DNA of 21,207 nt, from positions 1 to 21,207 of IMG/VR virus record IMGVR_UViG_3300042987_002154; one strand, written 5' to 3'. The notes beneath the pieces are model-generated. The model ran no database searches and had not been told where the DNA came from. It worked only from the letters and a program-made list of their open reading frames with translations. Below, one piece after another: positions 3,985-19,542 of the stretch; positions within the stretch are counted from its first letter, which is position 1, and each line of letters starts with the position of its first letter. The position numbers and the translations under genes were made by a program. This DNA is from a virus.

Positions 3985-5010
3985 GTGAACTTCCTAAAGC
4001 AGATCGTGAAGGAATCTGGCAACAAGTTTGCCAGCATCGTTGAGGATGGAATCGAAGGTGCAGATGTCGCGGGATTCGTTGACACAGGCTCCTATGCTTT
4101 CAATGCGCTTCTTTCGGGATCATTGTACGGAGGAGCAGCGGACAACAAGATCATCGCCCTTGCGGGTGAGTCTGCAACAGGAAAGACCTATTTCACCCTT
4201 GGGATTGTGGCGCAGTTCCTCAAGAACAATCCCGAGGGCATGGTTCTTTACTTTGATTCTGAGCAAGCCGTGACTTCAGATATGTTCGAAGGTCGCGGTG
4301 TGGATGCCAAGAGGGTTGCCGTGTTCCCTGTGGCTACCATTGAGGAGTTCAAGACTCAATGCGTGAACATCGTTGACAAGATTCTTGAGATGGACGAGAG
4401 CGACAGGAAGCCGATGATGATCGTCCTCGACTCGCTTGGAATGTTGTCCACCGAGAAGGAAGTCAATGATTCAGCGGAGGGCAAGAATGTTCGTGACATG
4501 ACGAGAGCGCAAGGTGTCAAGGCGACATTCCGAGTTCTTACGATGAAGTTGGGTAAGGCAAGGATTCCCCTTGTGATGACCAACCACACCTATGATGTCG
4601 TTGGTGCATATGTCCCTACGAAGGAAATGGGTGGTGGCAGCGGCCTGAAGTATGCCGCATCCACGATTGTATATCTTTCCAAGAAGAAGGATAAGAATGC
4701 AGATGGAGATGTAGTTGGAAACATCATCCATTGCAAGTTGTACAAGTCCCGTCTCACGAAGGAGAATCAGCAGGTCGATGTTCAGTTGAACTACGATACG
4801 GGTCTGAACCGCTACTATGGTCTGACCGAGATCGCACTCAACCACAACATCTTCAAGAAGATCTCTACGCGCATTGAACTTCCCGATGGCACAACGGCAT
4901 TTGAGAAGAACATCAATGAGAATCCCGAGAAGTATTTCACAGAGGAAGTGATGAAGCGGCTTGAAGAAGCCGTTGCCAAGGAGTTCAAGTATGGCGGATC
5001 GCAAGGTTAG
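3985..5010 (+). CDS. uvsX: UvsX-like RecA-family recombinase
   Basis: A 341-residue strand-exchange ATPase of the RecA/UvsX family; T4 UvsX has about 390 residues. Walker A is GESATGKT (61-68), Walker B is MMIVLDS (144-150), and TNHTY (199-203) is at the position of the RecA sensor before the DNA-binding loop. It would coat single-stranded DNA, pair homologous strands and support recombination-dependent replication with the gp41-like helicase and the polymerase in this window. I chose GTG 3985 because it follows the upstream stop by one base and has AGGAG at ideal distance; the longer frame from 3943 begins inside the upstream gene and adds residues unlike the family. Its last 20 bases overlap the first glycan gene. 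Composition is like the other replication genes. Confidence 0.95.
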
Positions 5011-5683
5011 GATTCTCTGCAAGTTTCCATCCAGGTCACGACCAGAGAAGTTCAAGGAAGTATTTTCCCTGTACAAGAACATGGCATCTGGAAAGCACGA
5101 ATTTATTTTCGTGCTTTCTTTTGATTCTGATGATGAATCGATGAACAACGATGACATGAAGAAGTGGTTGTCTGAGCAGGGGGAGAATGTCCATTGGTTC
5201 TATGGAGACTCAACAACAAAGATATCCGCAGTCAATGCGGACATGGATCGTGGGTGGGAGTTCGATATCCTGCTGTTAGCATCTGATGATATGATTCCAA
5301 TCAAGCCTGGTTATGATGATAACATCGTCAAGGACATGCTTGAACATTTCCCCAACTTCGATGGAGTTCTTCACTATAATGATGGAATTCGTGGAGACAA
5401 ATTGAATACTCTTTGTATTCTTGGCAAGAAGTATTTCGACCAGTTTGGATACATCTATCATCCATCGTACATCAGCGTGTTTGCAGATAATGAGTTCACT
5501 GAAGTCAGCAATGCTCTTGGAAAAGCAAAGTACATCGACAAGGTAATCATACAGCACAGGTGGATGGAGCAGGGTAAGGATGCCCTCTATCAGAGGAATG
5601 AAAACCCTGCTCTCTATCAGAAGGATCATATGGTCTATTCATTGAGGAGGTCGAATGGCTATCCATACATCCCAAGGAACTAA
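4991..5683 (+). CDS. Glycosyltransferase-like protein, copy A of a paralogous pair
   Basis: A 230-residue protein resembling GT-A glycosyltransferases. It has an early strand [11 protein letters not shown] (7-17), then FVLSFDSDD (40-48) and LLLASDDM (94-101), where SDD could be the metal and sugar-nucleotide site. It is clearly related to the protein encoded at 9108: both share ASGKH, the spacing of the acidic motifs, FGYIYHP and a DALxQRN segment near the C-terminus. No signal peptide or membrane span is seen. ATG 4991 is preceded by AAGGAG (4978-4983) at 7 bases; an in-frame start at 4961 would overlap uvsX much further. It is the first gene of the glycan block and overlaps the end of uvsX by 20 bases, so it is probably co-transcribed with it. 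Donor and acceptor are unknown. Confidence 0.75.
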
Positions 5684-6593
5684 TATTCTTGTAACTGGTG
5701 GAACTGGTCTTGTAGGATCATCGATTCCATTCGGTATCAAACCGACTCGGAAGCAGATGAATCTTCTTGATCGTCATTCTGTTTTGTCATATATCCAAAC
5801 ATATCCCGAGGTAGACACCATCATTCATGCCGCTGGTTTAGTTGGTGGAGTAAAGGGAAACTCAGACAGGATGTTTGATTTCTTGAATGAGAATCTCATG
5901 ATGGCTTGCAATGTCATGGAAGCCGTTGCCAAGATCGATCACATCAAGGAAGCCACATTCATCCTGTCAACCTGCATCTATCCGCAGGGGGTGGAGTACC
6001 CTGTGAATGCACACGATTTGCACAGGGGAGAACCTCATCCCACGAACTATGGCTATGCCTATGCCAAGAGAATGCTTGAGGTTGGTGCAAGGGCATTGAG
6101 GCAGCAGTATGGCAAGAAGGTACGCTGCATCGTACCATGCAATCTCTATGGTCCAAATGACAACTATGCCCTTGAGAGTGGGCATGTGATCCCGAGCCTG
6201 ATTCACAAATGCTATCTTGCCAAAAAGAATAATACTCCTTTTGTGGTATGGGGTAGTGGGAATGCAGAAAGGGAATTCATGTTTGCTCCAGACATTGGTA
6301 AGGTTCTTACTTCGATTCATTTAGATGGAGTCGAAACAAAGGACATCATGCTAGTTTCCGATGGTCGCCAGCATACCATAAGATCAGTTGTGAACCTCAT
6401 CTGTGAACACATGGGATACGACTTGGTCATCTATGACAAGACTAAGCCAGAAGGAATCATGAAGAAGCCTACCATCAACCATGACTTCATTGATTTTGTG
6501 GATAGGGCTGATATCTCGTTGACTTCATTGGAAGATGGAATATACTCTGCCATACAAGACTTCGTGAGGAGATATCCAAATGTCAGGATGTAA
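5655..6593 (+). CDS. fcl: GDP-L-fucose synthase-like epimerase/reductase
   Basis: An extended short-chain dehydrogenase (312 residues; E. coli Fcl/WcaG has 321). It would convert GDP-4-keto-6-deoxy-D-mannose to GDP-L-fucose by C3/C5 epimerisation and NADPH reduction. Visible hallmarks are the Rossmann motif GGTGLVG (15-21), the Ser/Cys of STCIYP (S105, C107), the catalytic YAYAK pair (Y134, K138), NLYGPNDNY (163-171) and H177 in GHVIP, which correspond to the Ser, Cys, Tyr, Lys and His known for this enzyme. GAGGAGG (5644-5650) precedes ATG 5655, and the gene overlaps its predecessor by 29 bases. The next gene supplies its likely substrate. ColC, which makes GDP-colitose, belongs to the same family, so a 3-deoxy substrate is possible given the RfbH-like gene downstream. 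Confidence 0.88.
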   Translation: MAIHTSQGTNILVTGGTGLVGSSIPFGIKPTRKQMNLLDRHSVLSYIQTYPEVDTIIHAAGLVGGVKGNSDRMFDFLNENLMMACNVMEAVAKIDHIKEATFILSTCIYPQGVEYPVNAHDLHRGEPHPTNYGYAYAKRMLEVGARALRQQYGKKVRCIVPCNLYGPNDNYALESGHVIPSLIHKCYLAKKNNTPFVVWGSGNAEREFMFAPDIGKVLTSIHLDGVETKDIMLVSDGRQHTIRSVVNLICEHMGYDLVIYDKTKPEGIMKKPTINHDFIDFVDRADISLTSLEDGIYSAIQDFVRRYPNVRM

Positions 6594-7581
6594 GACAGCA
6601 ATCATAACTGGTGTAAATGGACAAGATGGATCATATCTTGCGGAACTTCTCCTGTCTAAAGGCTATCGCGTGATAGGTCTCAAGCGCAGAACATCCACGA
6701 TAAACACGGGAAGAATCGATCACATCTATATCAGTGATAAGATTTCCCCCACACAGTTCAAGTTGCACTATTACGATCTGAGTGATGGCTCTGTGATTAG
6801 TAACTTGCTCTCCAAGTATCAACCCGATGAGTTCTACAATCTCGCTGCTCAGTCTCATGTCGCCGTATCATTTGAGGTTCCTGAGTATACCTCCGATGGA
6901 ATCGCTGGTGGAACTTTGAAGATACTTGATGCCATCAAGAACATCAGCCCAAAGACCAGATTCTATCAGGCATCATCTTCGGAGATGTTTGGAGACAGCA
7001 TGGACTACGGATCAAATGGTTACACGGAAGAAAGCAGGATGCTTCCTGTCTCACCATATGCCGTAGCCAAGTTGCATGCCCATCATATGACTCGCGTTTA
7101 CCGACAGGCATATGATATTCATGCATCTTCGGGTATACTATTTAACCATGAAAGTCCGCGCAGAGGTGAGACTTTTGTTACACGCAAGATCACGATGGCT
7201 GCTGCACGAATCAAACTTGGACTACAGAGCAAACTGCTTCTTGGAAATCTTGATGCAAAGAGAGATTGGGGATTTGCTGGAGATTATGTTGAAGCAATGT
7301 GGATGATGCTTCAACAACCCATCGGTGATGATTATGTGGTTTCCACGGGAAGGACATACAGCGTCAGGGAGTTTCTTGAGGTTGTATTCGATCATGCTGG
7401 GTTGGGTTCATATGAAAAGTATGTTGAAATTGATCCTCGCTTGTTCCGTCCAAATGAAGTTCCATATCTTCTTGGCGATCCCACGAAGGTAAGAAAGATT
7501 CTTGGATGGCAACCAAAGACCAGCATGGTTGGTCTAGCAAAAATGATGTATGACAGCGATCTTCAACTCATGAGTAAATAA
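6580..7581 (+). CDS. gmd: GDP-mannose 4,6-dehydratase
   Basis: A 333-residue extended SDR enzyme that makes GDP-4-keto-6-deoxy-D-mannose from GDP-D-mannose, the entry step to fucose, colitose, rhamnose and perosamine. The sequence has the typical NADP-binding GVNGQDGSYL (11-20), LAAQSHV (88-94), ASSSEMFG (131-138), SPYAVAK with Y160 and K164, the RRGETFVTRK segment (194-203) and NLDAKRDWGFAGDYVEAMW (223-241), all hallmarks of Gmd. It is slightly shorter than E. coli Gmd (373). ATG 6580 overlaps the end of the fcl-like gene by 14 bases and GAGGAG (about 6565-6570) provides ribosome binding. Adjacent gmd and fcl is the common arrangement in bacterial fucose clusters. Confidence 0.95.
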   Translation: MSGCKTAIITGVNGQDGSYLAELLLSKGYRVIGLKRRTSTINTGRIDHIYISDKISPTQFKLHYYDLSDGSVISNLLSKYQPDEFYNLAAQSHVAVSFEVPEYTSDGIAGGTLKILDAIKNISPKTRFYQASSSEMFGDSMDYGSNGYTEESRMLPVSPYAVAKLHAHHMTRVYRQAYDIHASSGILFNHESPRRGETFVTRKITMAAARIKLGLQSKLLLGNLDAKRDWGFAGDYVEAMWMMLQQPIGDDYVVSTGRTYSVREFLEVVFDHAGLGSYEKYVEIDPRLFRPNEVPYLLGDPTKVRKILGWQPKTSMVGLAKMMYDSDLQLMSK

Positions 7582-7583
7582 TA

Positions 7584-8192
7584 ATGCCAACACCAAAAGA
7601 TCAAGTTCTCTTCAGTGTACTGATACTATCGATCCCATCGCGTGTAGATAGATTCCTAATGCCTCTTTACAACAAGATGCTCCGACAGGCAGAGGGGCAT
7701 CCCGAGGTTGAGATACTTTGTCTTATCGACAACAAGAGCATGACGATTGGTGAGAAGAGACAGGCACTTCTTGACTCTGCAAGGGGTAAGTGGATTGGAT
7801 TCATGGACGATGATGATGGCATCTCAGATGACTACATCAAGAGTCTGTCCTATGCCATGAAGAACAATCCTGCCGATGTGATTACCTTTGATCAGCATTG
7901 CAGCGTCAATGGTGAGGAGTTCATGGTGAACTTCAGCATCAACAATCCACATCAGCCGTGGATTCCTGGTTCAGGGACAAAGAAGATACTTCGACCACCA
8001 TATCACATGTGCTTCTGGCGCAGCGAGATCGCCAAGAATGCCAGGTTCAAGCCATCATCCTATGGTGAGGATCTTGCATGGTGTATGGAGATGTACCCCA
8101 AGATCAGGACGGAGACCCATATAGATAAGGTACTCCACTACTATCAGTACAGCGACAGCACATCGGAGTCTATACAGTATGCTCGAAAATAA
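7584..8192 (+). CDS. Glycosyltransferase family 2-like
   Basis: A 202-residue GT-A fold glycosyltransferase, short for the family and essentially just the catalytic domain. It has the opening strand FSVLILSIPSR (10-20), the region IGEKRQALLDSARG where GT2 enzymes contact the nucleotide, the metal-binding cluster DDDD (75-78), and GEDLAW (161-166), which matches the catalytic-base ED motif of GT2 enzymes. No membrane segment is present. It starts two bases after the gmd stop with only a weak ribosome site (GAG in CATGAG), so translational coupling is likely. Its 3' end overlaps the GT15-like gene by 14 bases. Donor sugar unknown; a GDP-deoxysugar from the two preceding genes is a reasonable guess. 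Confidence 0.85.
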   Translation: MPTPKDQVLFSVLILSIPSRVDRFLMPLYNKMLRQAEGHPEVEILCLIDNKSMTIGEKRQALLDSARGKWIGFMDDDDGISDDYIKSLSYAMKNNPADVITFDQHCSVNGEEFMVNFSINNPHQPWIPGSGTKKILRPPYHMCFWRSEIAKNARFKPSSYGEDLAWCMEMYPKIRTETHIDKVLHYYQYSDSTSESIQYARK

Positions 8193-9087
8193 TGCTACTA
8201 TAATTTACCTCACTAGGCGACAAGATTTGTGGATATTTCTTCATAGCATAACATTGTTGTGGAGAAATTTTTGTTCCATACACAAATATCCAGTTTTGGT
8301 ATTTCATGATGATTTAAGTGATGAAGATATTTCTCAGGTTAATCAACTGATTGCATCTCGCACCAATGGAGAGATGAATATCTCGTTTGAGAGAATTTGT
8401 TTTCAATTTCCTGAACATATCTCTACGAATCCCTCTCTGTATGAACACCCACAGAATCATCCGATAGGGTTAAGAAATTTTGGATATGGATATCGGCACA
8501 TGTGTAGATTTTTTTCTGGGCTAGTTATGAATCATCCATCCATGAAAAAGTTCAAGTATTACTGGAGATTGGATTCCGATTCTTTCATTTTGTCTAGGAT
8601 TGAAACCGACCCATTTAAGACGATGAAAGACCGCGAATTTGTTTATTGTGATTTTGGAACAAAACCCTTAAACAGAGAAGATGGCTGGAGATACTCGGGT
8701 AAAGAAATACTTTGGGCTAGAGAAAAACTGTGGGAATCCACACAGGAATTCTTACGACAGAAAAAACTTCAAGACTTCGATTATGATGGAGAAGTGTACA
8801 ATACAAATCTGGAGATAGTTGATTTGGATTTCTTCAGAGCAAACGAGTACCAATCTTTCTTCTCGTACATGGATAAAATCGGAGGATTCTATTATAATCG
8901 GTGGGGGGATGCTCCTTTCCGATGGCTTGGTCTAAAGTTATTCTCTTCTCCCGAAAAGGTGTGGTTTGCTCAAGAAACTATTGATTATTGCTATCAACAT
9001 GGTTCATTGGTTGTTGGTATTGATAAACTTGATTATGATTGCCTGAACCTTGTACCAGATGTTTTTAGACGAATGCTGAACAGATAA
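8179..9087 (+). CDS. GT15 (Kre2/Mnt1)-like mannosyltransferase
   Basis: A 302-residue protein with striking resemblance to GT15 alpha-1,2-mannosyltransferases, known mainly from the fungal Golgi. Matching elements in order: GYRHMCRFFSG (104-114), YYWRLDSD (127-134) at the place of the fungal YWRVEPD metal motif, DPF at 144-146, NTNLEIVDLDFFR (208-220) whose E212 matches the conserved Glu of the fungal SNFEI segment, GGFYYNRWGDAP (235-246), and H274 near the C-terminus. Metal ligands would be D132 and D134 rather than Glu and Asp. Fungal enzymes are about 440 residues with an N-terminal membrane anchor; this protein has none and would be cytosolic. Family members use GDP-mannose, the substrate of the nearby Gmd. 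The gene is much more AT-rich than its neighbours, which suggests separate acquisition. The family call rests on recalled motifs. Confidence 0.8.
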   Translation: MLENNATIIYLTRRQDLWIFLHSITLLWRNFCSIHKYPVLVFHDDLSDEDISQVNQLIASRTNGEMNISFERICFQFPEHISTNPSLYEHPQNHPIGLRNFGYGYRHMCRFFSGLVMNHPSMKKFKYYWRLDSDSFILSRIETDPFKTMKDREFVYCDFGTKPLNREDGWRYSGKEILWAREKLWESTQEFLRQKKLQDFDYDGEVYNTNLEIVDLDFFRANEYQSFFSYMDKIGGFYYNRWGDAPFRWLGLKLFSSPEKVWFAQETIDYCYQHGSLVVGIDKLDYDCLNLVPDVFRRMLNR

Positions 9088-9107
9088 TATCTTCGGAGCC
9101 TTATAGT

Positions 9108-9815
9108 ATGCAAACAAGTGACCGCAAGACAATCCTACTGAAGTATCCCACTCGTCAGCGTCAACTCAAGTTCTTTGAGAACCTGATCAATTATCTCAAC
9201 AAGGCATCTGGTAAGCACGATATCCGTGTGGTTGTCAGCATGGATACCGATGATGCTGAGATGAATACAGATGAAGTCAAAGAAGGGCTTGCAAGCCTTT
9301 GTGAAGATTTTGTATTTATCAGTTATAACTATGGACCTAGCCTTGGAAAAATCAATGCCATCAATCGTGATGTTCCCGATGATCATTGGGATATATTGAT
9401 TGCAACGGCAGATGATATGGAGCCAGTCGAAGACGATTGGGATGATATCATTGTGCAGGATATGACGCAAGAATTTCCCGATCTCTGCGGGGCGTTGAAC
9501 TATAACAATGATCCCCGGCTTGAAGCAAAGGGAGCAGAAGGCTACAAGACTCTCATCACGCTGCCTGTGATCGGTAGGAAGTTATATGATAAGTTTGGAT
9601 ACATCTACCACCCTGATTACAAATCAGAATGGTGTGACAACGAGCAGACCGAAGTGTTTGAGACTCTTGGTGTGCTGAGGCACATCAATCGTCGCCCAAT
9701 CATTCATAAGTGGGCAGAGAATCAGGATGCGCTCATGCAAAGAAATATGCAAATCGGATGGAATCACGATAGACAAACATTTATAAACAGAAAGGCATCT
9801 GGATTTCCTCAATGA
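9108..9815 (+). CDS. Glycosyltransferase-like protein, copy B of a paralogous pair
   Basis: A 235-residue GT-A-like protein homologous to the one encoded at 4991. Shared features are DRK near the start, KYPTRQR (12-18), ASGKHD (33-38), VVSMDTDD (42-49), IATADDM (98-104) as likely metal site, FGYIYHPDY (163-171) and DALMQRN (207-213). Similarity extends to DNA: 9203-9220 and 5083-5100 differ by one base over 18. GC is higher than in the genes on either side and like that of copy A, which supports duplication within the same genome background. A GGAG (about 9096) lies upstream of ATG 9108 at longer than usual distance. Its stop overlaps the next start as ATGA. Sugar specificity unknown. Confidence 0.75.
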   Translation: MQTSDRKTILLKYPTRQRQLKFFENLINYLNKASGKHDIRVVVSMDTDDAEMNTDEVKEGLASLCEDFVFISYNYGPSLGKINAINRDVPDDHWDILIATADDMEPVEDDWDDIIVQDMTQEFPDLCGALNYNNDPRLEAKGAEGYKTLITLPVIGRKLYDKFGYIYHPDYKSEWCDNEQTEVFETLGVLRHINRRPIIHKWAENQDALMQRNMQIGWNHDRQTFINRKASGFPQ

Positions 9816-10645
9816 TTGTGCAAATTACTAGGACTAGAAATGAATTATTTCTGTTAAAGGAAATGATGCCTATTTGGGCAAAATATGCAGACGGTTTTGT
9901 TTTTCTGTTAGACACTTGCACTGATGGAACGGATCAGTTTTTGAAGGAATATCAGAAGCAGTATAACATACTTTCTATTCTTGAAATAAAAAAGACCAAT
10001 GATGTACTTGATATTGAATCTGATGACAGACAAATTCTCTTCGATGAAGCATTCAAATATTCCAAGAAGATAATTTGTCTTGACACAGATGAATATCTTG
10101 ATGGAACTATGACAAAGCAAGAATTGGAATCCATTCTTGATCAACATGTTGATACTTTATTTTATCTGTCATGGCTACAATACACCGGAAAGAACACAAT
10201 TCGTGTTGATGGAAAATGGGCTAATCATCCCGTTGATCGTCTAGCATCCTATTCTAATAGATGTACATTTAAGTCACGACAAATGCATTCGGAACATATT
10301 CCAACACCAAATAGAATGGCGCAGATAAATCCTCCGCACTTATTTGTTTCGCATCTTCAATGGCTAGACAAGCAATCTGTTGCTGTCAAACAATACTATT
10401 GGAAAGTGGTTGACTATGTGAACAAGATGAGGTACTCTACAGATGTAATCGATTGCAAAGAGTATGACAAGTCTGTTTCGGATTTCAACTGGTCTGAAGT
10501 ATCTGTTCCTTTCGAGTTGAAAGTGTCTGCCGACATATACAAAAATCAAAATCCGTTTGATGGATACAAATATAAGTTCATTCGTGAAAGCATTGAAAAG
10601 TACAATATTCCAAATCTAAATGATTGGGGATTGGGGATACACTAA
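9812..10645 (+). CDS. Glycosyltransferase family 2-like (Glyco_tranf_2_4 type)
   Basis: A 277-residue protein with the pattern of the family-2 subgroup that begins with a short strand and RNE (VQITRTRNE, 3-11), then FLLDTCTDGTDQFL (31-44) and a CLDTDEYL metal motif (89-96). It lacks membrane segments, and its C-terminal half has aromatic-rich segments but no recognisable extra domain. It overlaps the preceding gene by four bases (ATGA). The DNA is strongly AT-rich: 15 G+C in the 60 bases at 9961-10020, against 31 in 9481-9540 of the preceding gene. That abrupt change suggests a different source from copy B just upstream. Substrate unknown. Confidence 0.8.
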   Translation: MIVQITRTRNELFLLKEMMPIWAKYADGFVFLLDTCTDGTDQFLKEYQKQYNILSILEIKKTNDVLDIESDDRQILFDEAFKYSKKIICLDTDEYLDGTMTKQELESILDQHVDTLFYLSWLQYTGKNTIRVDGKWANHPVDRLASYSNRCTFKSRQMHSEHIPTPNRMAQINPPHLFVSHLQWLDKQSVAVKQYYWKVVDYVNKMRYSTDVIDCKEYDKSVSDFNWSEVSVPFELKVSADIYKNQNPFDGYKYKFIRESIEKYNIPNLNDWGLGIH

Positions 10646-10647
10646 AC

Positions 10648-11997
10648 ATGCAAGAAATTCTAAAACTGGTTGAGCAATATATTCAGACAAAAAATTCTGC
10701 AAAGAACTGGGTTGCTGGAAGAGATTGGGTTCAGTACGCTGGTCCTTATTTTGGACATGAAGAGTATGTTGATTCTGTCAAGACTTTGTTGGAAGGATGG
10801 TTGGTTCTTGGTCAGAATGGAATCCGATTCGAACAGCAGTTTCCCGCCTTAATGGGAAAACAGTATGGTATACTCACCAATAGTGGCAGCAGTTCCAATC
10901 TCTTGATGATGTCCTCACTTACCTCAAGAAGATTGTATGGGTTTCCCAAGGGAACCAAAGTCATAACCCCAATCGCTGGATTTCCAACCACAATAAATCC
11001 AATATTCCAAGTTGGTTTTGAACCAGTATTTGTGGATATTGATCTGGATACACTAAATCTAAACCTAGATCAGGTTGAGCAGAAAGCAAGGGAAGGATGC
11101 AAGGTAATCACCTTTGCCCATGTTCTAGGAAATCCTCCGAACATGAACAGGTTGATGGATATCGTGAAAAGATATGATCTTGTCCTTCTTGAGGATTGTT
11201 GTGATGCGTTGGGATCCAATTACAACGGAAATCCTCTTGGTTCTTTTGGTGAATTTGCAAGTTGTTCTTTTTATCCTGCACACCACATAACGATGGGGGA
11301 GGGAGGCTTTGTTGCTTGTAAGACCCATGAACAGGAGATTGTAGTAAGGAGTTTTAGAGAATGGGGACGAGGCTGTTTTTGTGTCGGGCAGAAGGCTAAT
11401 CTTCTCAAGAATGGTTCGTGCAAGAAGAGATTTTCTAATTGGCTACCTTCCCTTCCTGATGAAATATTTGATCACAAGTATGTCTACGACGAGATTGGCT
11501 ACAATATGAAGCCAATCGATCTACAGGCTGCGATGGGACTGGTTCAGATGAAGAGATTGCCCGATATCGTAGAAAGGAGAAAGAAGAATCACAAGAGACT
11601 TTGTGAGATATTCTCCAAGTACGATGACTGCTTCATCATTCCAAAGGCAACAGAAAACTCGGATCCATCTTGGTTTGCATTTGCCGTAACCATAAAGGAT
11701 GGTGCCAAGTTCAAGAGAAAGGATATAGTTGACTACTTTGAGTCGAATCTGATTCAGACTCGTCCTTACTTCGCGGGAAACATCATGCTACAGCCAGCAT
11801 ATGAAGGAATAATGGACTCAAGTAATGTAATCAAGCAGTTCCCAAATGCCAGAAAAGTAACAACCGATACCTTCTTCTTGGGAACAAGTCCAGTGATTAC
11901 TGATGAACAGTTGGACTACATTGAAAAGACTGTACATGATTTCTTCCACGACAAGAGAGTATCTATATCTGTATTGGGTTGTGGGGATTTTAAATGA
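10648..11997 (+). CDS. rfbH: RfbH-like PLP sugar 3-dehydrase (DegT/StrS fold)
   Basis: A 449-residue fold-type I PLP enzyme of the DegT/DnrJ/EryC1 family. In SFYPAHHITMGEGG (207-220), His (H212) replaces the Lys that normally holds PLP, as in sugar 3-dehydrases RfbH/E1 and ColD. Those enzymes remove the C3 hydroxyl of 4-keto-6-deoxy sugars and do not form an internal aldimine. Four cysteines follow the E1 [2Fe-2S] pattern: C185-X57-C243-X-C245, then C258. The last gap is 12 residues instead of 7. GTK, DIDLDTLNL and EDCCDALGS are also typical. I chose ATG 10648, two bases after the upstream stop, over TTG 10624. No E3 reductase partner is visible. The substrate may be the CDP or the GDP sugar; the nearby gmd favours GDP, the Fe-S cysteines favour the RfbH branch. 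Confidence 0.88.
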   Translation: MQEILKLVEQYIQTKNSAKNWVAGRDWVQYAGPYFGHEEYVDSVKTLLEGWLVLGQNGIRFEQQFPALMGKQYGILTNSGSSSNLLMMSSLTSRRLYGFPKGTKVITPIAGFPTTINPIFQVGFEPVFVDIDLDTLNLNLDQVEQKAREGCKVITFAHVLGNPPNMNRLMDIVKRYDLVLLEDCCDALGSNYNGNPLGSFGEFASCSFYPAHHITMGEGGFVACKTHEQEIVVRSFREWGRGCFCVGQKANLLKNGSCKKRFSNWLPSLPDEIFDHKYVYDEIGYNMKPIDLQAAMGLVQMKRLPDIVERRKKNHKRLCEIFSKYDDCFIIPKATENSDPSWFAFAVTIKDGAKFKRKDIVDYFESNLIQTRPYFAGNIMLQPAYEGIMDSSNVIKQFPNARKVTTDTFFLGTSPVITDEQLDYIEKTVHDFFHDKRVSISVLGCGDFK

Positions 11998-13076
11998 GTC
12001 TATTGCGTAATCCAATTTATCTTTTCGGTGCTGGTGGTGCTGCTTCATGGGTTTTGTCTGGTTTTAAACGAGAGTCTTTGGTGGTGGCTGGATTTTTAGA
12101 CGATGCAGCGGACCAAATAAAACATGTTTGTGGCTTACCTGTTTACAATCCAACAACAAATAGAATCAGCGAATCTGAGAAGCAGAATTCATCTGTTGTT
12201 TTTTGCGTGATGAATCGAAAGATTGACGAATCAGCAATTCTTCAAAAACTCAGAAAAATGGGATGGAAAAACTGTTATGCATTCAGCGAGTTTGGTAAAA
12301 AACTCTTCAGAGAAACTGGTATTCGTTGCGGGATGTTAGATCATCGATCTCTAATATCAAATATGGATAAAATCACATTTGTTCGTTCTATATTATCAGA
12401 TGAGAAAAGTCGTTCTGTTTTTGATGGATTTATAGACTTTTGCCTTACTTTAGATGAAAAAGTATCCATTGATAGCAGTCAGTATTTCCCGAAAGACATT
12501 CCCAGATGGAAAGATAATCTTCGTCTGATAGACTGTGGTGGATATTGTGGAAGTGTTATGATGGATGCAATTGAAAACAAATATTCCCTAGTCGATTGTA
12601 TTTCATTTGAACCCGATCTTATTAATTTTCAAAAACTATCTCAGACAATACGCTCCATGGATGGAGTGATTGCTTGCCCATGTGCAGTTTCAGACAAAAC
12701 TCAACTAATTAAATTTAGGATGCAAGGAGACATGGGAAGTTTTATGGATGATGATGGAGATTTGATGATTCAATCGGTTTCTATAGATGAGATGCTTCCC
12801 ACATTTGCTCCAAATCTTATCAAAATGGATATAGAAGGATCTGAGCAGAAGGCTTTGAGGGGTGCAAGAAAAACTCTAGAAAAATATAAGCCATGTTTGG
12901 CTATATCTATCTACCATATGAGTGATGATCTGTTTGAGATACCTCTATACATAAACCAAATTTATGGGTGTGAGTATGATTATTACATGAGAAAACATAG
13001 TAGGACTATTGCAGACACAATTTTATATGTTTGTCCCAAAAATAAAAGTTTTGATGGTGGAAAGGTGATTGAGTAA
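11994..13076 (+). CDS. FkbM-family methyltransferase with N-terminal Rossmann-like domain
   Basis: A 360-residue protein with two parts. The C-terminal part (about 175-348) is an FkbM methyltransferase: LIDCGGYCGS (178-187) binds S-adenosylmethionine, E206 follows the next strand, IKMDIEGSEQKALRGA (276-291) is the family hallmark, and AISIYHMSDDLFEIP closes the fold. Members O-methylate sugars or polyketides. The N-terminal part (1-110) begins IYLFGAGGAASWVLSGF and contains GFLDD, resembling the nucleotide-binding N-terminal domain of PglD-type sugar proteins, and may be a regulatory or substrate domain. It overlaps the rfbH-like gene by four bases. The DNA is AT-rich. A likely role is capping or decorating the glycan made by the neighbouring transferases. 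Confidence 0.85.
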   Translation: MSLLRNPIYLFGAGGAASWVLSGFKRESLVVAGFLDDAADQIKHVCGLPVYNPTTNRISESEKQNSSVVFCVMNRKIDESAILQKLRKMGWKNCYAFSEFGKKLFRETGIRCGMLDHRSLISNMDKITFVRSILSDEKSRSVFDGFIDFCLTLDEKVSIDSSQYFPKDIPRWKDNLRLIDCGGYCGSVMMDAIENKYSLVDCISFEPDLINFQKLSQTIRSMDGVIACPCAVSDKTQLIKFRMQGDMGSFMDDDGDLMIQSVSIDEMLPTFAPNLIKMDIEGSEQKALRGARKTLEKYKPCLAISIYHMSDDLFEIPLYINQIYGCEYDYYMRKHSRTIADTILYVCPKNKSFDGGKVIE

Positions 13077-13753
13077 TGACCAAACTTGATTTGAATAATG
13101 TAACTCTTCTTTCCTTCAATTGTGTTGATCCTGTTCGTAGTGTGAAAGCACTTCTGTATAGTTCAAAGCATATTAACTTTGCAAAAATGATACTCGTAAG
13201 TGATGCAAAACCAAACAGACTTCCTGCTGACATTGAGTTTGTTCAAACTGATGCAACCACTCATGCCAAAGCATGCGCTTGGACATATACACACCTACCA
13301 TATCTCGTTGACACAGATTACTGTTTGTTCATTCATGATGATGGGTTTGTCATAAATCCTCACCTGTGGAATTCTGAGTGGCTTCAGTATGATTACATCG
13401 GCGCGCCGTGGAAAAACTTTGGGCAAATAAATCGTGTTGGTAATGGTGGGTTCTGTCTCCGCAGCAGGAAGTTCTTTGAACTCATGAAAAAGATACAATA
13501 TCGTGGAACTCATTGCGATACCGAATTGAGCAATGATTACTACAATTATTTTGTTGCCAATGGTTGTCGATATGCTCCTGTCGAGGTGGCAATGAAATTT
13601 TCTCTTGAATCTAGAATTCCTGAATCGGATTACAATCTTGATAATTGCTTTGGATTTCACGGAAGAGGTAAGCCAGAAACAACTAGTGTGCATGATGGCT
13701 ACTATCAACAATTTCAAGAAAAATGTAAATTACTAGATGGTGTAGAGATATGA
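13076..13753 (+). CDS. DUF5672-type protein, likely glycosyltransferase
   Basis: A 225-residue protein matching the recalled pattern of the DUF5672 family common in LPS and capsule clusters: CLFIHDDGFVINPHLW (83-98), YDYIGAPW (105-112), VGNGGFCLRSRKF (121-133), a CDTE segment, YAPVEVAMKFSLE (166-178) and FGFHG (192-196). HDDG could be the metal site of a GT-A fold. The family has no firm enzymatic role known to me, but the order of motifs resembles glycosyltransferases. It shares one base with the preceding stop (TAATG), so translation is probably coupled. No signal peptide or membrane span. Confidence 0.8.
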   Translation: MTKLDLNNVTLLSFNCVDPVRSVKALLYSSKHINFAKMILVSDAKPNRLPADIEFVQTDATTHAKACAWTYTHLPYLVDTDYCLFIHDDGFVINPHLWNSEWLQYDYIGAPWKNFGQINRVGNGGFCLRSRKFFELMKKIQYRGTHCDTELSNDYYNYFVANGCRYAPVEVAMKFSLESRIPESDYNLDNCFGFHGRGKPETTSVHDGYYQQFQEKCKLLDGVEI

Positions 13754-13778
13754 TATCTTACGAAGAAAGTTGGTAAAG

Positions 13779-14450
13779 ATGCAATCTGTAGTTGTTGTTA
13801 CTGGATATGATGATTCTGATTCCACTTCATCCTATCAAGAAGTATTTGATCTCACTCTTCCATCGAAGCAAAGATATTGCCGTGAACGGGGCTACGACCT
13901 CGTTGTTCTTCGTTCAATACCAAAAAGATATCCTTCTTTGGACATCGGTATTCGAAGGTTGATGGTATGCTTGGAACTAACCGAGATGTGGGATACTGTT
14001 GCGTGGATAGATGCTGATACTGTGATAACAGGAAAAACAAACCTGGAGTCTTTTGTTGACGATAATCACTGCTTCTATGCTTCCCATGATTATGGTGATT
14101 GGGCTATCCGCGGAAATTATATTAATACTGGAAATTTTGTTTTGAAAAATGGTGAATCTCTAATCACACTTAAAACCATTACTAATCAGTATTCTGTTTC
14201 GTTTAATAACGAGCAGGAAATGATGAATACCTTAATCCGACAAGGTATGAAATGGATAAGGGTATTGTCCAACGAATATCTGGGATCTCATCCAAAAGAA
14301 ATCCCCCTAATGAAGATTCAAAATGGAGATGGTATACAAGCACCAAATTCAAAACCGTGGAAGGAAACGGATTTGATGGCACATCTTGCCGGTATTCCCA
14401 ATAAGCAAAGAGTAGAACTGTTAAAGAGTAAGTTTGAAAAATATCTTTAA
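13779..14450 (+). CDS. GT34-like (GMA12/MNN10) glycosyltransferase, first of tandem pair
   Basis: A 223-residue protein whose pattern suggests the galactosyl/mannosyltransferase family GT34. Visible are KQRYCRERGYDLVVLRS (30-46), VAWIDADTVIT (74-84) with the metal-binding DAD, YINTGNFVLKN (114-124), NEQEMM (144-149) and a C-terminal AHLAG (201-205). GT34 is best known from yeast Golgi and plants, but bacterial and viral relatives exist; I hold the family name at moderate certainty. There is no membrane anchor. ATG 13779 is preceded by GAAGAAAG; a TTG at 13770 is an alternative. The next gene encodes a divergent paralog, so the two may add successive residues or act on different acceptors. Confidence 0.7.
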   Translation: MQSVVVVTGYDDSDSTSSYQEVFDLTLPSKQRYCRERGYDLVVLRSIPKRYPSLDIGIRRLMVCLELTEMWDTVAWIDADTVITGKTNLESFVDDNHCFYASHDYGDWAIRGNYINTGNFVLKNGESLITLKTITNQYSVSFNNEQEMMNTLIRQGMKWIRVLSNEYLGSHPKEIPLMKIQNGDGIQAPNSKPWKETDLMAHLAGIPNKQRVELLKSKFEKYL

Positions 14451-14466
14451 ACATGGAGTATAACCC

Positions 14467-15192
14467 GTGATTCACAAAAAACGAGTGTTGGTTCTTACTG
14501 GTATGACAGATAATGTAGATGTTGTATTGAATGAGCCTGTTAAAATGACCCCTGTCTATGATGCTACCCTTTCTTCAAAAGAAAGGTATGCTAGAAGGCA
14601 CTCCTATGATTTCATGAGTCTTCGATCTTTTGGTAATGACTCAGAAGGATTGTTGGGGGATGAAATAACTGACGAAACAACAATCCGTGGAACAGGCTTC
14701 TTAAGGGTGTTGCGTGCTTTTCAGATGTTGAATTTTTATGATTATGTCATGTGGATAGACGGAGATTCGTTGATTACGAATGACAACTATACCATAGAAG
14801 ATTTTGAAATGGGAGACAAAGTTTTCTGCGCTTCATATGATTGGGAGTGGAAGAGAAGTTTTAGCACTGGAAATTTTATTATGCAGAAAAATGAGCATAC
14901 ACAAATCTTGATGCAACATTTCTTTGCTATTGCTAGAAATAAAAACTGCCCCCACGAACAGGCGGCTCTAAATTACATACACCGGGCAAAAGAGACGAGC
15001 CATCTGTTCAAAGTTCATGAGCATAGATATCTCGGTGCAATACCAAGCAATGAAATTCATCTTGAATGCTGCAACACCGATAGGACAGTGCTCTATCCAT
15101 GGAACAGCGATTGCTTCTTGGTTCACCTAACTGGTCTAGACAACCAAAGTAGAATGAATATACTTAACACACATTTCAAGTCTTACATGTAA
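14467..15192 (+). CDS. GT34-like glycosyltransferase, second of tandem pair
   Basis: A 241-residue paralog of the preceding protein. The same landmarks occur in order: SKERYARRHSYDFMSLRS (37-54), VMWIDGDSLIT (94-104) with DGD as metal site, SFSTGNFIMQ (131-140), HEQAALNY (163-170) and LVHLTG (218-223). It carries an insertion near residues 55-75 compared with its partner. The start is GTG 14467, supported by GGAG (14455-14458) at 8 bases; no ATG lies near the expected N-terminus, since the first in-frame Met is residue 13, inside the first strand. The gap from the preceding gene is 16 bases. No signal or membrane segment. Substrate unknown. Confidence 0.7.
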   Translation: MIHKKRVLVLTGMTDNVDVVLNEPVKMTPVYDATLSSKERYARRHSYDFMSLRSFGNDSEGLLGDEITDETTIRGTGFLRVLRAFQMLNFYDYVMWIDGDSLITNDNYTIEDFEMGDKVFCASYDWEWKRSFSTGNFIMQKNEHTQILMQHFFAIARNKNCPHEQAALNYIHRAKETSHLFKVHEHRYLGAIPSNEIHLECCNTDRTVLYPWNSDCFLVHLTGLDNQSRMNILNTHFKSYM

Positions 15193-15205
15193 TGAAGGTA
15201 AATGA

Positions 15206-16159
15206 ATGAAAATAGTCTATGTAACGGGATGTCTTGGATTCATTGGCTCTTATGTAACTCGTCTTTGCTTGGAGAAAGGTTGGTATGTCAAGGGGGTAGA
15301 TAAAATTACATACGCTGCCAATCGCGATCTACTCAATGAGTTCGGTCAATATAAGAACTTTTCTTTTACCCAATGTGACATAAATGATCTGAAGTTTTTG
15401 TATGACTGTGATTACATCATAAACACAGCAGCAGAGACTCATGTTGGCAATTCAATTGCTAACAGTGATGATTTTGTGCATTCTAATATCAATGGTGTTC
15501 ACAATCTTTTAGAGTTGATAAGGAACTACAGACCAGAAAACGGTAGGAAGCCGGTTCTTCTACATTTTAGTACTGACGAAGTCTATGGAGACATAGTTGA
15601 TGGAGCGCACACAGAGACCGATTTGCTCAAACCATCGAATCCATATTCCGCAACAAAGGCGGCGGCGGATATGCTCATCCTTGCTTGGGCAAGAACTCAT
15701 TCGATTCCGTTTGTTATAATACGACCGACCAACAACTATGGTATAGGTCAGTATGTAGAAAAACTAATACCGAAGACATGCAAGTTCTTTCATATTGGAA
15801 GAAAAGTTCCACTGCACAACAAAGGAACCCCCGTGAGAACTTGGCTTCACGCAGAAGATACTGCAATGGCTGTGGTCAGTATAATAGAATCTGGAGTAGC
15901 CAATGAGATTTACAATGTTTCTGGTGGATACGAACAATCCAATCTCCAAACTGTCGAGAAGATACTGTCGTGTCTTGCCAATAAAGAAAATGCACGGATA
16001 GAAGATTATATTGATCTTTCTTGTTCGCGAATTGGACAGGATCTCCGCTATTCTCTTGACGACAGCAAATTGAGGAGTTTGGGGTGGGAACCAATAAAAA
16101 AGTTTGATCAAGAACTCCCAAAGATAGTTGAATACTACAAGGATAGATTCATATGGTAA
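15206..16159 (+). CDS. rmlB: dTDP-glucose 4,6-dehydratase-like (RmlB)
   Basis: A 317-residue extended SDR most like RmlB, which makes dTDP-4-keto-6-deoxy-glucose. Hallmarks are TGCLGFIGS (7-15), VDKITYAANRDLL (31-43, the RmlB VDKLTYAGN segment), AAETHVGNSI (75-84), STDEVYG (122-128) with the catalytic Asp-Glu pair, NPYSATKAAAD (145-155) with Y147 and K151, and RPTNNYG. It differs from CDP-glucose dehydratase RfbG, which has a TSDKCY segment instead. RmlA, RmlC and RmlD are not in the window, so the product may be used by the downstream SDR or supplied from host pools. GAAGG (15194-15198) precedes ATG 15206. The end overlaps the transketolase gene by 7 bases. Confidence 0.88.
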   Translation: MKIVYVTGCLGFIGSYVTRLCLEKGWYVKGVDKITYAANRDLLNEFGQYKNFSFTQCDINDLKFLYDCDYIINTAAETHVGNSIANSDDFVHSNINGVHNLLELIRNYRPENGRKPVLLHFSTDEVYGDIVDGAHTETDLLKPSNPYSATKAAADMLILAWARTHSIPFVIIRPTNNYGIGQYVEKLIPKTCKFFHIGRKVPLHNKGTPVRTWLHAEDTAMAVVSIIESGVANEIYNVSGGYEQSNLQTVEKILSCLANKENARIEDYIDLSCSRIGQDLRYSLDDSKLRSLGWEPIKKFDQELPKIVEYYKDRFIW

Positions 16160-16788
16160 ACCATCTAATAAAAGAAAAACAAATTATTCTTGAGTTGGCT
16201 TATAAAAATAAACTATCGCATTTGGGCAGTTATTTTTCGTCGGTAGAAATAATCGACAGCATATACAATACCAAAGCAAAGGATGACATTTTTATATTGT
16301 CTTCGGGACATGCTGCTCTTGCTCTTTATGCCTGTCTTGAAGTTCGTGAAGGAAGAGATGCGGAGTTGCTTTTCAAGAAGCATGGGGGACATCCTCATAG
16401 AGATGAGGAAAATGGCATATTTTGCTCAACGGGAAGCCTGGGTCTTGGTATAACAGTTGCCTTGGGTAGGGCAGTTGCAAATCCAAATAGAAAAGTTTAT
16501 GTGCTGATCAGTGATGGTGAGTGTGCCGAGGGTAGTGTTTGGGAAGCGTTGAAAACTATTTACGAACAGAAAATAAATAATATTGAAATTCATGTGAATG
16601 TAAATGGATATGCTGCTTATATGGAAGTTGACAAGAAATATCTTATTGAAAGATTGACTACATTTCTCCCGTCGATAAAGATATGGCATACAACCGTGGA
16701 GCAACTTCCATGTCTTAAAGGATTGAATGCGCACTATCATGTAATGAGTGAAACGGATTATAATCTTGCTAGAAAGGAAATAGAATAA
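16153..16788 (+). CDS. Transketolase-like, N-terminal (ThDP pyrophosphate) subunit
   Basis: A 211-residue protein corresponding to the first domain of transketolase. Visible are SHLGS (22-26) at the place of the substrate His loop, FILSSGHAALALYA (47-60), CSTGSLGLGITVALGRA (91-107) and the ThDP/metal motif SDGECAEGSVWEA (120-132) with N151 as second metal ligand; Ser replaces the usual first Gly of GDG. Transketolase N-halves are usually about 270 residues, so this is reduced. It overlaps the RmlB-like gene by 7 bases. Its partner domain is the gene at 16844, and the two should form one active site at their interface. A two-carbon ketol transfer onto a sugar precursor is the expected chemistry; the substrate is unknown. 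Confidence 0.85.
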   Translation: MVNHLIKEKQIILELAYKNKLSHLGSYFSSVEIIDSIYNTKAKDDIFILSSGHAALALYACLEVREGRDAELLFKKHGGHPHRDEENGIFCSTGSLGLGITVALGRAVANPNRKVYVLISDGECAEGSVWEALKTIYEQKINNIEIHVNVNGYAAYMEVDKKYLIERLTTFLPSIKIWHTTVEQLPCLKGLNAHYHVMSETDYNLARKEIE

Positions 16789-16790
16789 CA

Positions 16791-16841
16791 ATGAATGGTT
16801 CATCTGATGCTGTATCTTTCAAAATCACTTTTGAGGACTGA
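16791..16841 (+). CDS. Possible 16-codon mini-ORF between the transketolase halves
   Basis: An ATG at 16791, two bases after the preceding stop, opens a frame that ends with TGA at 16839-16841, two bases before the next ATG. AAAGGAAA (16774-16781) lies upstream at a slightly long distance. The peptide MNGSSDAVSFKITFED has no recognisable feature. It may be a translational coupler, a remnant of the lost joint between the two halves, or chance; only its exact fit in the 55-base gap supports it. Confidence 0.25.
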   Translation: MNGSSDAVSFKITFED

Positions 16842-16843
16842 TC

Positions 16844-17320
16844 ATGAGACGAGATTTTGAAAACCTGCTTTATGAAAAGATGGCAAAAAATGCCGATATC
16901 TATCTGATAACTGGTGATCTCGGATATGGGCTGTGGGATAGAATCCGTGATACTTATCCCAACAGATTTTTCAATGTTGGTTCATCTGAGATGGCTATGA
17001 TGGGTATGGCAATAGGTCTTGCAATGGAGGGAAAGATACCATTTGTGTATTCGATAACTCCATTTGCAATCTACAGACCTTTTGAGATGATACGAAATTA
17101 TTTGGATCATGAAAAAATAACAGTAAATATAGTTGGGGGAGGACGAGATAAAGATTATGGTTATCTCGGATTTTCTCACTGGGCAGAGGATGATAGGAGA
17201 ATTATGTCTTCATTTGACAATATTCGAACATTTCATCCAAATAGTGAGTATGAACTTCGTAATTGTGTAGAAGAAATATTTAATATACCGAAGCCAACCT
17301 ATCTTAACTTGAAAAAGTGA
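16844..17320 (+). CDS. Transketolase-like, pyrimidine-binding subunit (minimal)
   Basis: A 158-residue protein corresponding to the middle, pyrimidine-binding domain of transketolase. LITGDLGYG (21-29), FFNVGSSEMAMMGMAIGLAMEG (split here as residues 42-63) with E49 as the conserved Glu that activates thiamine diphosphate, and LGFSHWAEDDRRIMSSF (108-124, matching the usual THxxxED segment) identify it. The third domain present in most transketolases and in the usual C-terminal halves (about 300 residues) is absent. GAGG (16832-16835) precedes ATG 16844. It must pair with the 16153 product to bind ThDP. Small split pairs of this kind occur in surface-polysaccharide clusters, where two-carbon transfer to sugars has been proposed. 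Confidence 0.85.
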   Translation: MRRDFENLLYEKMAKNADIYLITGDLGYGLWDRIRDTYPNRFFNVGSSEMAMMGMAIGLAMEGKIPFVYSITPFAIYRPFEMIRNYLDHEKITVNIVGGGRDKDYGYLGFSHWAEDDRRIMSSFDNIRTFHPNSEYELRNCVEEIFNIPKPTYLNLKK

Positions 17321-17321
17321 T

Positions 17322-18110
17322 ATGACTAGAATATTGATAACTGGTGCTGCTGGATACATCGGGAGAAGTATGGTGTCTTGGTTTTCAAATTTTCCAAACA
17401 CTATAGTTACTCCCCTAACTAGAAACGATGTTGATCTTAGGGATTGCAATTCTCTTGACAACTGGATGAACCGAAAAGAGTTTGATGTTATTATCCACGC
17501 CGCCGCTGTTGGTGGGAGTAGACTTACCACAGATGACAAATCAGTTCTTGAACAAAACCTATCTCTGTTTAGAAACATCTTCAAGTACAAAGATAGAGTT
17601 AAAAAATTTATTTCTTTTGGGTCTGGATCTGAACTTTTCAACCCAAAATCTCCATATGGTATGAGTAAGAGGATCATTGCTGACTCTCTGAGAGAAAACG
17701 CAAATTGTCACAATATAAGAATATATGCCGTATTTGATGAGAATGAATTGCCTACAAGATTCATTAAATCGAACATACTTCGTTGTATTAACAATGAAGC
17801 AATGGTGATCCATGCTAATAAGTTCATGGATTTTTTCTATATGGAGGATTTGTGTAGGCTTACCAATTATTTTATACAGACTAATTCCGATCTACCAAAT
17901 GAAATTGATTGCTCTTACTCAAATCGCAAAACTTTGCTGGAAATAGCACATCAGATAAATCATGCATGTAAGAAATCGGTGGATATTCTATGTTCTTCAA
18001 CTGGGCTAGTAGATTCATATGTTGGGACGAGCAATCTCCCACAAATAGAATTTGTTGGGCTTGACGCAGGATTGGTTGCCACTATTGATGCATTAAGACA
18101 AAGTTCTTGA
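17322..18110 (+). CDS. NAD-dependent sugar epimerase/dehydratase, short
   Basis: A 262-residue extended SDR with the cofactor loop TGAAGYIGRS (7-16), IIHAAAVGGS (57-66), FISFGSGSE (97-104) and the catalytic SPYGMSK (110-116, Y112 and K116), followed by KFMDFFYMEDL (167-177). It is shorter than typical members (about 310) and trimmed in the substrate-binding part. It could reduce or epimerise a 4-keto sugar made by the RmlB-like or Gmd enzymes, or act on the transketolase product; the sequence does not decide. It starts one base after the preceding stop and is the last gene of the glycan block. The DNA is very AT-rich (17 G+C in 17581-17640). Its stop codon lies within the -35 element of the putative helicase promoter. 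Confidence 0.82.
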   Translation: MTRILITGAAGYIGRSMVSWFSNFPNTIVTPLTRNDVDLRDCNSLDNWMNRKEFDVIIHAAAVGGSRLTTDDKSVLEQNLSLFRNIFKYKDRVKKFISFGSGSELFNPKSPYGMSKRIIADSLRENANCHNIRIYAVFDENELPTRFIKSNILRCINNEAMVIHANKFMDFFYMEDLCRLTNYFIQTNSDLPNEIDCSYSNRKTLLEIAHQINHACKKSVDILCSSTGLVDSYVGTSNLPQIEFVGLDAGLVATIDALRQSS

Positions 18111-18134
18111 CTCGACCCTCCCCTGAGATATATT
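18107..18134 (+). promoter_or_regulatory. Predicted sigma70-like promoter, leaderless, for helicase
   Basis: TTGACT (18107-18112) and TATATT (18129-18134), each five of six to consensus, are 16 bases apart and followed by TACCTAC and ATG 18142. The predicted transcription start is at or one base before the ATG. No Shine-Dalgarno lies at normal distance. The element matches the one before the polymerase almost base for base and would let the helicase and primase be expressed independently of the glycan block upstream. Confidence 0.55.
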
Positions 18135-18141
18135 TACCTAC

Positions 18142-19542
18142 ATGATCGAACTAACCATCCTGCGTGAACTGACTCGCAACGATCAGTACTTCCGAAAAGT
18201 CCTCCCCTTCCTCAAGGAGGACTATTTCGCTGATAGGGACACCAAGATTCTATTCAGAATCATCGCGGACTACCTTCAGAAGTACAACTCCATGCCCACC
18301 CGCGGGGCATTGGAGATCATGCTCGACGCGAAGACCAACATCGACCCCGAGACCATGAAGCAGACTATGGAGACCCTTGCCAAGGTCTTCGTGGACGAGA
18401 AGCCGCCAGACATCAACTGGCTTGTCGAGCAGACGGAGAAGTTCTGCAAGGACAAGGCACTCTACAATGCCGTGCTGGAATCCATCCACATCATCGATGG
18501 CAAGTCGAAGGACAAGGATGTGGGTTCCCTGCCGAAGATGCTCTCAGACGCTCTGGCTGTCTCCTTTGACACGCATATCGGTCACGATTACATCGAAGAC
18601 TACGGCAAGCGGTACGAGTTCTATCATCGGGTAGAGAACAAGATTCCGTTCGACATCGATCAGTTCAACATCATCACGAATGGTGGGGTTCCTCGCAAGA
18701 CCCTCAACATCATCATGGCAGGAACGGGTGTGGGCAAGTCGCTCTTCATGTGCCACCATGCATCCGCTTGCCTGACGCAGAACCTTGATGTCCTCTACAT
18801 CACCTGCGAGATGGCAGAGGAACGCATCGCTGAACGCATCGATGCCAACCTGATGGACATCGCTATGGAGGATCTCAAGAAACTTCCTGCCGATCTCTAC
18901 AACAAGAAGATGCAGAAGATTCGAAAGCAGTACACGGGTAGGTTGATCATCAAGGAGTATCCGACTGCAACGGCGAATGCGAATCATTTCCGTGCATTGC
19001 TCAATGATCTCAAGACGAAGAAGAACTTCGAACCCGACATCATCTTCATCGACTATCTGAACATCTGTGCTTCATCCCGTCTGAAGATGAGTGCATCGGT
19101 CAACTCCTATACATTCATCAAGGCAATCGCTGAGGAGATCCGAGGGCTTGCAGTCGAGTTCGATGTCCCGATCTTCTCCGCGACTCAGGTGAACCGAGGT
19201 GGATTCAACAATACCGATGTCGGTCTTGAGAACACATCCGAATCATTCGGTCTTCCTGCAACGGCAGACCTGATGTTCGCATTGATCGGCACTGAGGAAC
19301 TTGAGGAGCAGGGGCAGGTGCTTGTAAAGCAGTTGAAGAATCGATACAACGATGTCTCGCGAAACAAGAAGTTCGTGGTCGGCATCGACAGGGCAAAGAT
19401 GAAGTTGCTTGATGTGGACAGCCCAATCGTGGGAGACGAGGGGTTTGGAAAGAAGGAAGATGAAGATGATGTTAAGGTTGTGACTAAATCATCAAAACAA
19501 TCAACTGGTTCCGATAGATACACGGACTGGAGTTTCGACTGA
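18142..19542 (+). CDS. 41: Replicative DNA helicase, DnaB family, T4 gp41-like
   Basis: A 466-residue hexameric helicase that would unwind the lagging-strand template 5' to 3' and recruit the primase; T4 gp41 has 475 residues. The N-terminal helical part (1-150) is followed by a RecA-like domain with Walker A GTGVGKS (194-200), YITCEMAEERIAERI (219-233, H1a-type Glu at E223), Walker B IIFIDYL (300-306) and SATQVNRGG (346-354) with the sensor Gln Q349. The C-terminus is acidic and Lys-rich, ending in DWSFD. ATG 18142 follows the leaderless promoter element. The DNA is GC-rich (34 G+C in 18361-18420), a sharp change from the glycan gene just upstream. Its stop shares one base with the primase start. 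Confidence 0.95.
   Translation: MIELTILRELTRNDQYFRKVLPFLKEDYFADRDTKILFRIIADYLQKYNSMPTRGALEIMLDAKTNIDPETMKQTMETLAKVFVDEKPPDINWLVEQTEKFCKDKALYNAVLESIHIIDGKSKDKDVGSLPKMLSDALAVSFDTHIGHDYIEDYGKRYEFYHRVENKIPFDIDQFNIITNGGVPRKTLNIIMAGTGVGKSLFMCHHASACLTQNLDVLYITCEMAEERIAERIDANLMDIAMEDLKKLPADLYNKKMQKIRKQYTGRLIIKEYPTATANANHFRALLNDLKTKKNFEPDIIFIDYLNICASSRLKMSASVNSYTFIKAIAEEIRGLAVEFDVPIFSATQVNRGGFNNTDVGLENTSESFGLPATADLMFALIGTEELEEQGQVLVKQLKNRYNDVSRNKKFVVGIDRAKMKLLDVDSPIVGDEGFGKKEDEDDVKVVTKSSKQSTGSDRYTDWSFD

Follow-up and report, generated by a model that had tools for sequence, protein, structure and literature searches.

GT15 glycosyltransferases have been described from fungi: the PF01793 family was confined to fungi among 153 genomes (PMC5225481), and the GT15 structures and papers that we found all deal with fungal enzymes. 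In Ktr4p the Mn2+ ion is ligated by Glu-262 of an EPN motif and by His-411, and Asn-264 lies at the surface (PMC4546622). In CaMnt1 the metal ligands are Glu236 and His377, Tyr209 (Tyr220 in Kre2) is implicated in catalysis, the donor is contacted by Arg234, Ser315, Asn316, Asp350 and Ala351, guanine by Arg118, Asp149 and Met212, and the acceptor residues are His312, Trp314 and Arg347 (PMC11077754). A literature search, which had subscription papers and preprints outside its range, returned no report of a phage GT15; two apparent prior mentions were rejected, as "GT15" is a sampling station in PMC9983427 and a Bifidobacterium strain in several other papers.

The window analysed here, a stretch of 21,207 nucleotides of an IMG/VR virus record, encodes a protein of 302 amino acids that is a member of this family:

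8179..9087, plus strand: gene for a soluble GT15 (Kre2/Mnt1-type) glycosyltransferase with GT-A fold, from ATG through stop codon (PF01793; PDB 7boo, 5a07 and 1s4n; AlphaFold; Foldseek)

PF01793 (Glyco_transf_15) is the sole Pfam family of this ORF, with an E-value of 2.4e-41 and an alignment that joins protein residues 3-271 to profile positions 54-322 of 325. The profile search proposed in a preliminary description of the window thus gave a strong match, and its score of 142.7 bits against a curated cut-off of 25 bits places the motif resemblance noted there well above chance; the ORF and all quoted motifs (Y105-RHMCRF, W129-RLDSD134, N210-LEIVDLDFFR, G235-GFYYNRWGDAP and the late H274) are present. 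When the protein was searched against the PDB with phmmer, the only significant matches were GT15 enzymes, CmsA/Ktr4 (7boo, E 7e-25), Ktr4p (5a07, 3e-21) and Kre2p (1s4n, 2e-19), with 27-31% identity over the alignment. A search of NCBIfam gave no match. All 47 of the non-redundant phage members collected in this work likewise carry PF01793 and no other Pfam family at an E-value of 0.001.

The predicted structure agrees with this assignment. An AlphaFold2 model of the window protein, built on an alignment of the 47 phage members, reached a pLDDT of 94.7 and a pTM of 0.92, and its eleven best Foldseek matches in the PDB are all chains of Kre2, Ktr4 or CmsA (E 7e-20 to 4e-18, TM by query 0.72-0.78), so that the comparison with Kre2 suggested earlier indeed yields a Kre2-type fold; the nearest family outside GT15 is UGGT at 5e-7. 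A member from a distant cyanophage clade (L046), modelled separately (pLDDT 92.8), matches Kre2, CmsA and Ktr4 at 5e-18 to 1e-15 and the next family at 3e-9. For the window protein and the distant clade alike, the GT-A fold is nearer to Kre2/Ktr4 than to other retaining GT-A families.

Placement of the active site is based on sequence and profile alignment together with the fold match. The profile of the phage family aligns up to the late histidine of all three fungal chains. Five segments hold the residues concerned:

8491..8511, plus strand: Y105-RHMCRF; Y105 aligns with Tyr220 of Kre2 and Tyr209 of CaMnt1, M108 with Met212, which contacts guanine in CaMnt1; both residues in 75/75
8566..8583, plus strand: R130-L-D132-S-D134-S135; R130 as putative donor contact, D132 aligned with the Glu that binds Mn2+ in fungi, complete DxD motif; R130, D132, D134 and S135 in 75/75
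8803..8814, plus strand: T209-N210-L-E212; putative donor-sugar contacts (Ser315/Asn316 of CaMnt1) and E212; N210 in 69/75, E212 in 65/75
8899..8916, plus strand: R241-WGD244-AP; putative acceptor Arg and donor O4/O6-binding Asp; R241, W242 and D244 in 75/75
8992..9000, plus strand: Y272-Q-H274; position of the second Mn2+ ligand (His-411 of Ktr4p, His377 of CaMnt1); H in 75/75

Eleven residues (Y105, M108, R130, D132, D134, S135, R241, W242, D244, Y272 and H274) are invariant in the 75 full-length phage members, and Y105, R130 and the DxD aspartates show no variation in all 76 aligned sequences. Residues at the guanine- and mannose-contacting positions are mostly retained among the 75; of the guanine positions, D44 is D or E in every one, and R13 is kept in 57. 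The preliminary description had set D132, D134, E212 and H274 at the Kre2 active site. D132 and H274 do align with the Mn2+-binding Glu and His of 1s4n and 5a07, and the metal is most likely bound by this first acidic residue of the DxD and the late histidine. D134 and E212 are weaker assignments than D132, Y105, R130, D244 and H274; for D134 homology does not guarantee an active-site place, because the aligned Asn-264 of Ktr4p sits on the surface. The same description contrasted the phage DSD with a fungal EPD. The three solved fungal members have E-P-x where the window protein has DSD, yet the third position varies in fungi, where EPD and EPN both occur (PMC4546622). Across the phage branch the Glu of E-P-x is replaced by Asp in 76 of 76 sequences and the third position is always Asp, which gives a canonical DxD. 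On the acceptor side the fungal CHFW segment, which carries the acceptor His and Trp and a disulfide Cys, is missing from the window protein; phage members mostly have Tyr or Asn in place of the acceptor Trp and also lack the Cys that fungi have seven residues past the metal-binding Glu. Taken together, these alignments suggest that the metal, donor and guanine sites have been retained while the acceptor side has been rebuilt.

The window is a fragment of a T4-like tailed phage. It encodes a DNA polymerase (polB), UvsX, DnaB helicase and primase that fall into PHROGs of T4-like phages, the polymerase being 50% identical to that of Synechococcus phage S-RIM8. Among 49 related records, the T4 major capsid protein Gp23 occurs in six (E below 1e-89) and genes for photosystem II reaction-centre proteins (PsbA/PsbD) in eleven; part of the family therefore infects cyanobacteria. 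A 177-kb record of the window's own clade has Gp23 and lacks a photosystem gene. A giant-virus origin was rejected on the evidence of Gp23 and PsbA/PsbD, on which the phage assignment leans because the search for an NCLDV capsid, negative in all 49 records, had no positive control. As a separate observation, a cyanobacterial-type SLH-OprB porin is encoded two genes away from GT15 in three records (L036:9667-11130, L046:9664-11124 and L053:9631-11094), the first two of which also carry photosystem II genes.

The GT15 gene lies in a glycan island (5655-18110) flanked by UvsX and DnaB, whose genes include:

5655..6593, plus strand: GDP-L-fucose-synthase-like epimerase/reductase (best match NF047922, below cut-off, 184 of 500)
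6580..7581, plus strand: gmd, GDP-mannose 4,6-dehydratase (TIGR01472, 441.5 bits, cut-off 415)
7584..8192, plus strand: GT2-family glycosyltransferase (PF00535, E 1.1e-6; phrog_8858), overlapping the start of GT15 by 14 bp
10624..11997, plus strand: RfbH-type DegT enzyme, a 3-dehydrase of deoxysugar synthesis (NF011936, 470.6 bits, cut-off 423)

The order is fucose-synthase-like reductase, gmd, GT2, GT15, a glycosyltransferase-like ORF, a GT2-like gene and the RfbH-type enzyme, followed by an FkbM methyltransferase, DUF5672, two GT34-like genes, a dTDP-glucose-dehydratase-like gene, a split transketolase and an epimerase. The gmd gene, earlier said to adjoin GT15, is thus confirmed in the neighbourhood with one GT2 gene in between. 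It occurs at 50% identity or more near 7 of the 76 GT15 loci, and GDP_Man_Dehyd is found among the GT15 neighbours in other clades. Some further features of the region deserve mention. ORFs 4961-5683 and 9108-9815 have no Pfam match and are present in 25-27 of the 76 loci, the latter with a weak match to a glycosyltransferase PHROG. Two adjoining ORFs at 13770-15192 weakly resemble GT34 (GMA12/MNN10), which is known chiefly from eukaryotes. The transketolase (16153-17320) is encoded as separate N- and C-terminal halves within the same island as the RfbH-type enzyme, and nine related loci share it with at least 50% identity. A 23-bp element, CTGAGRTATAYTTACCTACATGA, occurs in the window only at 1042-1064 and 18123-18145, where polB and dnaB have their start codons, and did not arise in 100 shuffles; it may act as a promoter or translational operator common to the two genes.

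The gene is mobile among close relatives. Two records, L014 and L030, are nearly identical to the window in UvsX (97 and 94%) and DnaB (91 and 93%); in both, the flanking genes directly abut where the window has GT15, and a different GT15 (39 and 32% identical) lies farther along. Viewed over the whole stretch 5655-18110, these records combine near-identical replication genes with reshuffled glycan genes and non-orthologous GT15 copies elsewhere. In the window GT15 sits between two copies of an imperfect direct repeat of 19-20 bp, each with a start codon:

8163..8182, plus strand: 5' copy, TCGGAGTCTATACAGTATGC, containing the GT15 start and a GGAG that resembles a ribosome site
9093..9111, plus strand: 3' copy, TCGGAGCCTTATAGTATGC, with the start of the next gene

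Their similarity ranks second of 190 pairs of gene starts in the window, and the L014 junction without GT15 has one repeat copy only. The repeats and this junction are consistent with a cassette of one gene having been inserted or lost via short homology.

Relatives are numerous among viral contigs. Scans of IMG/VR yielded 101 and then at least 130 stretches that encode them, a lower bound because the scans required exact peptide patterns; 76 loci from 69 different metagenome ids were kept from the scan that gave 101. The family was recovered with an alignment of three phage proteins as query, and neither a single-sequence scan of viral contigs nor an exact DNA motif for GGFYYxRWGDAP found any member, both being too strict. 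PF01793 scores above cut-off in all 49 large records, and many records of the long-form clade have two copies. Four different queries gave no GT15 match in 50,697 GenBank phages; there was none in the plasmids searched, or in PHROGs with 32 phage members. Two scans of prokaryote genomes gave no GT15 with patterns so narrow that absence from bacteria is not established. The phage branch is under purifying selection, with a median dN/dS of 0.054 (range 0.018-0.116) over 80 close pairs. In an unrooted tree a branch with 100/100 support divides three fungal rows from 47 phage rows; among the latter, a long-form clade, to which the window protein belongs, is separate from a short-form one. Of the two possibilities raised in the preliminary description, cross-domain transfer or an unrecognised branch, the second is borne out for viruses, and a recent transfer into the window phage is not supported. 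We conclude that these proteins make up a branch of GT15 in phages that is coherent and has so far gone uncharted.

How this branch came to share a family with fungi is a question of origin that is compatible with the function proposed below. We give about even chances to an ancient transfer, either from a phage or bacterial GT15 to fungi or in the opposite direction, in which giant viruses or unsampled bacteria served as intermediaries. The phage sequences sampled, 47 rows with long inner branches, are more diverse than the three fungal rows, and the best fold match in BFVD is a Megaviridae environmental protein, A0A5J6VLB3 (TM 0.70, 301 columns), a likely giant-virus relative and the one that this database contains; against this, the tree is unrooted with few fungal rows and bacterial genomes were scanned with narrow patterns only. 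The more specific proposal that the soluble DxD lineage of phages (or of phages and unsampled bacteria) is the older and more diverse one, from which the anchored E-P-x mannan synthases of fungi derive by transfer, strikes us as rather improbable.

The analysis shows the family, predicted fold, residue conservation, phage context, selection and mobility among relatives; the donor, linkage, acceptor and biological role given in what follows are inferred. With good confidence, we propose that the window protein is a soluble, cytoplasmic GT15 of the phage branch that acts in a phage glycan pathway. It would bind GDP-mannose, the likely donor, together with a metal ion that D132 and H274, and perhaps D134, would ligate. 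Transfer of the sugar onto a growing glycan would proceed with retention, giving an alpha linkage, and Y105 would occupy the reaction centre like its counterpart in Kre2. Alpha-1,2-mannosyltransferase (or mannosylphosphate) activity with GDP-mannose characterises the family. In the cytoplasm it may act on a glycan that the island produces, whether lipid-linked, free or bound to protein, the putative partners being gmd, RfbH, the dTDP-glucose-dehydratase-like enzyme and several other glycosyltransferases. The product might coat the virion or alter the host surface against superinfection, alternatives that we weigh equally; phage virion glycans are known, namely from mycobacteriophages (work to which PMC12691614 and PMC12619734 refer).

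Because the segment with His312, Trp314 and the disulfide Cys is absent or changed in the phage proteins, they may use another acceptor, and possibly another donor sugar, than fungi do. As gmd consumes GDP-mannose, a GDP-6-deoxyhexose would be a possible donor. It is nevertheless unlikely that the GT15 fold serves another chemistry here, be it transfer of such a GDP-sugar made via the gmd route or of a sugar phosphate: a fucose-synthase-like gene and gmd are nearby, acceptor-site residues are altered and some fungal members are mannosylphosphate transferases (PMC4546622), but gmd at 50% identity or more lies near only a few of the loci, and the Asp that contacts O4 and O6 of mannose in the fungal model (PMC11077754) is invariant here as D244, in keeping with a hexose that carries O6. 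Some phage glycosyltransferases have DNA as their substrate (work cited in PMC12619734); that GT15 adds sugar to modified bases in the phage's DNA instead of to a surface glycan is nonetheless very unlikely, since RfbH, dehydratases, the FkbM methyltransferase, the split transketolase and several glycosyltransferases are more typical of a complex glycan and the window proteins that were scanned included no recognisable product of a base-hydroxymethylation gene. Recent capture of a fungal gene by the window phage alone, or fungal DNA joined in assembly, to which the fungal description of PF01793 and a GC content of 0.37 against 0.47 in the phage core might point, is highly improbable, and recent capture is already refuted, in view of the many related viral stretches, the fully supported branch between fungi and phages, the low GC of the whole island (0.40), the overlap of GT15 with a phage neighbour and the failure of fungal-only patterns to find any fungal-type member in viral contigs.

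GT15 enzymes underlie the mannan of the fungal wall (Kre2, Ktr4, CmsA), and members are antifungal targets. The phage branch offers natural soluble homologues for work on structure and mechanism, its DxD in place of E-P-x is a natural test of the debated retaining mechanism, and it provides a test case for the relations between eukaryotic and viral glycosylation families. For phage biology the gain is a predicted alpha-mannosyl step in the glycan islands that aquatic T4-like phages, among them cyanophages, carry.

T4-like cyanophages and further phages of aquatic habitats have glycan islands (GT2, GT25, GT11, gmd, FkbM) that lie among replication genes and mix nucleotide-sugar with glycosyltransferase genes, as that of the window does; the difference is GT15, of which no member was found in the GenBank phage records or PHROGs. 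The Megaviridae protein, 536 residues long and from a giant virus of eukaryotes, is a candidate relative by fold match and is 17% identical to the window protein. Fungal enzymes have an N-terminal anchor and stem, whereas the phage proteins have neither and are presumably cytoplasmic: as stated earlier for the window protein, a membrane anchor is absent (beta-1 begins at residue 6 of the model, and the maximum 19-residue hydropathy is 0.96), and no membrane or hydrophobic segment was found in any of 76 phage members. The type II anchor, E-P-x motif, CHFW segment and disulfide cysteines that mark the fungal Golgi Kre2/Ktr subfamily are all wanting. With Kre2p/Mnt1p, Ktr4p and CmsA (1s4n, 5a07, 7boo) the phage proteins have in common the Pfam family, the GT-A fold, the RWGDAP motif, the Y/M/R/D/H active-site set, the predicted Mn2+ site and the guanine contacts. 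They are a soluble, diverged version of GT15 in bacterial viruses of lakes and the sea, and the family is wider than had been thought.
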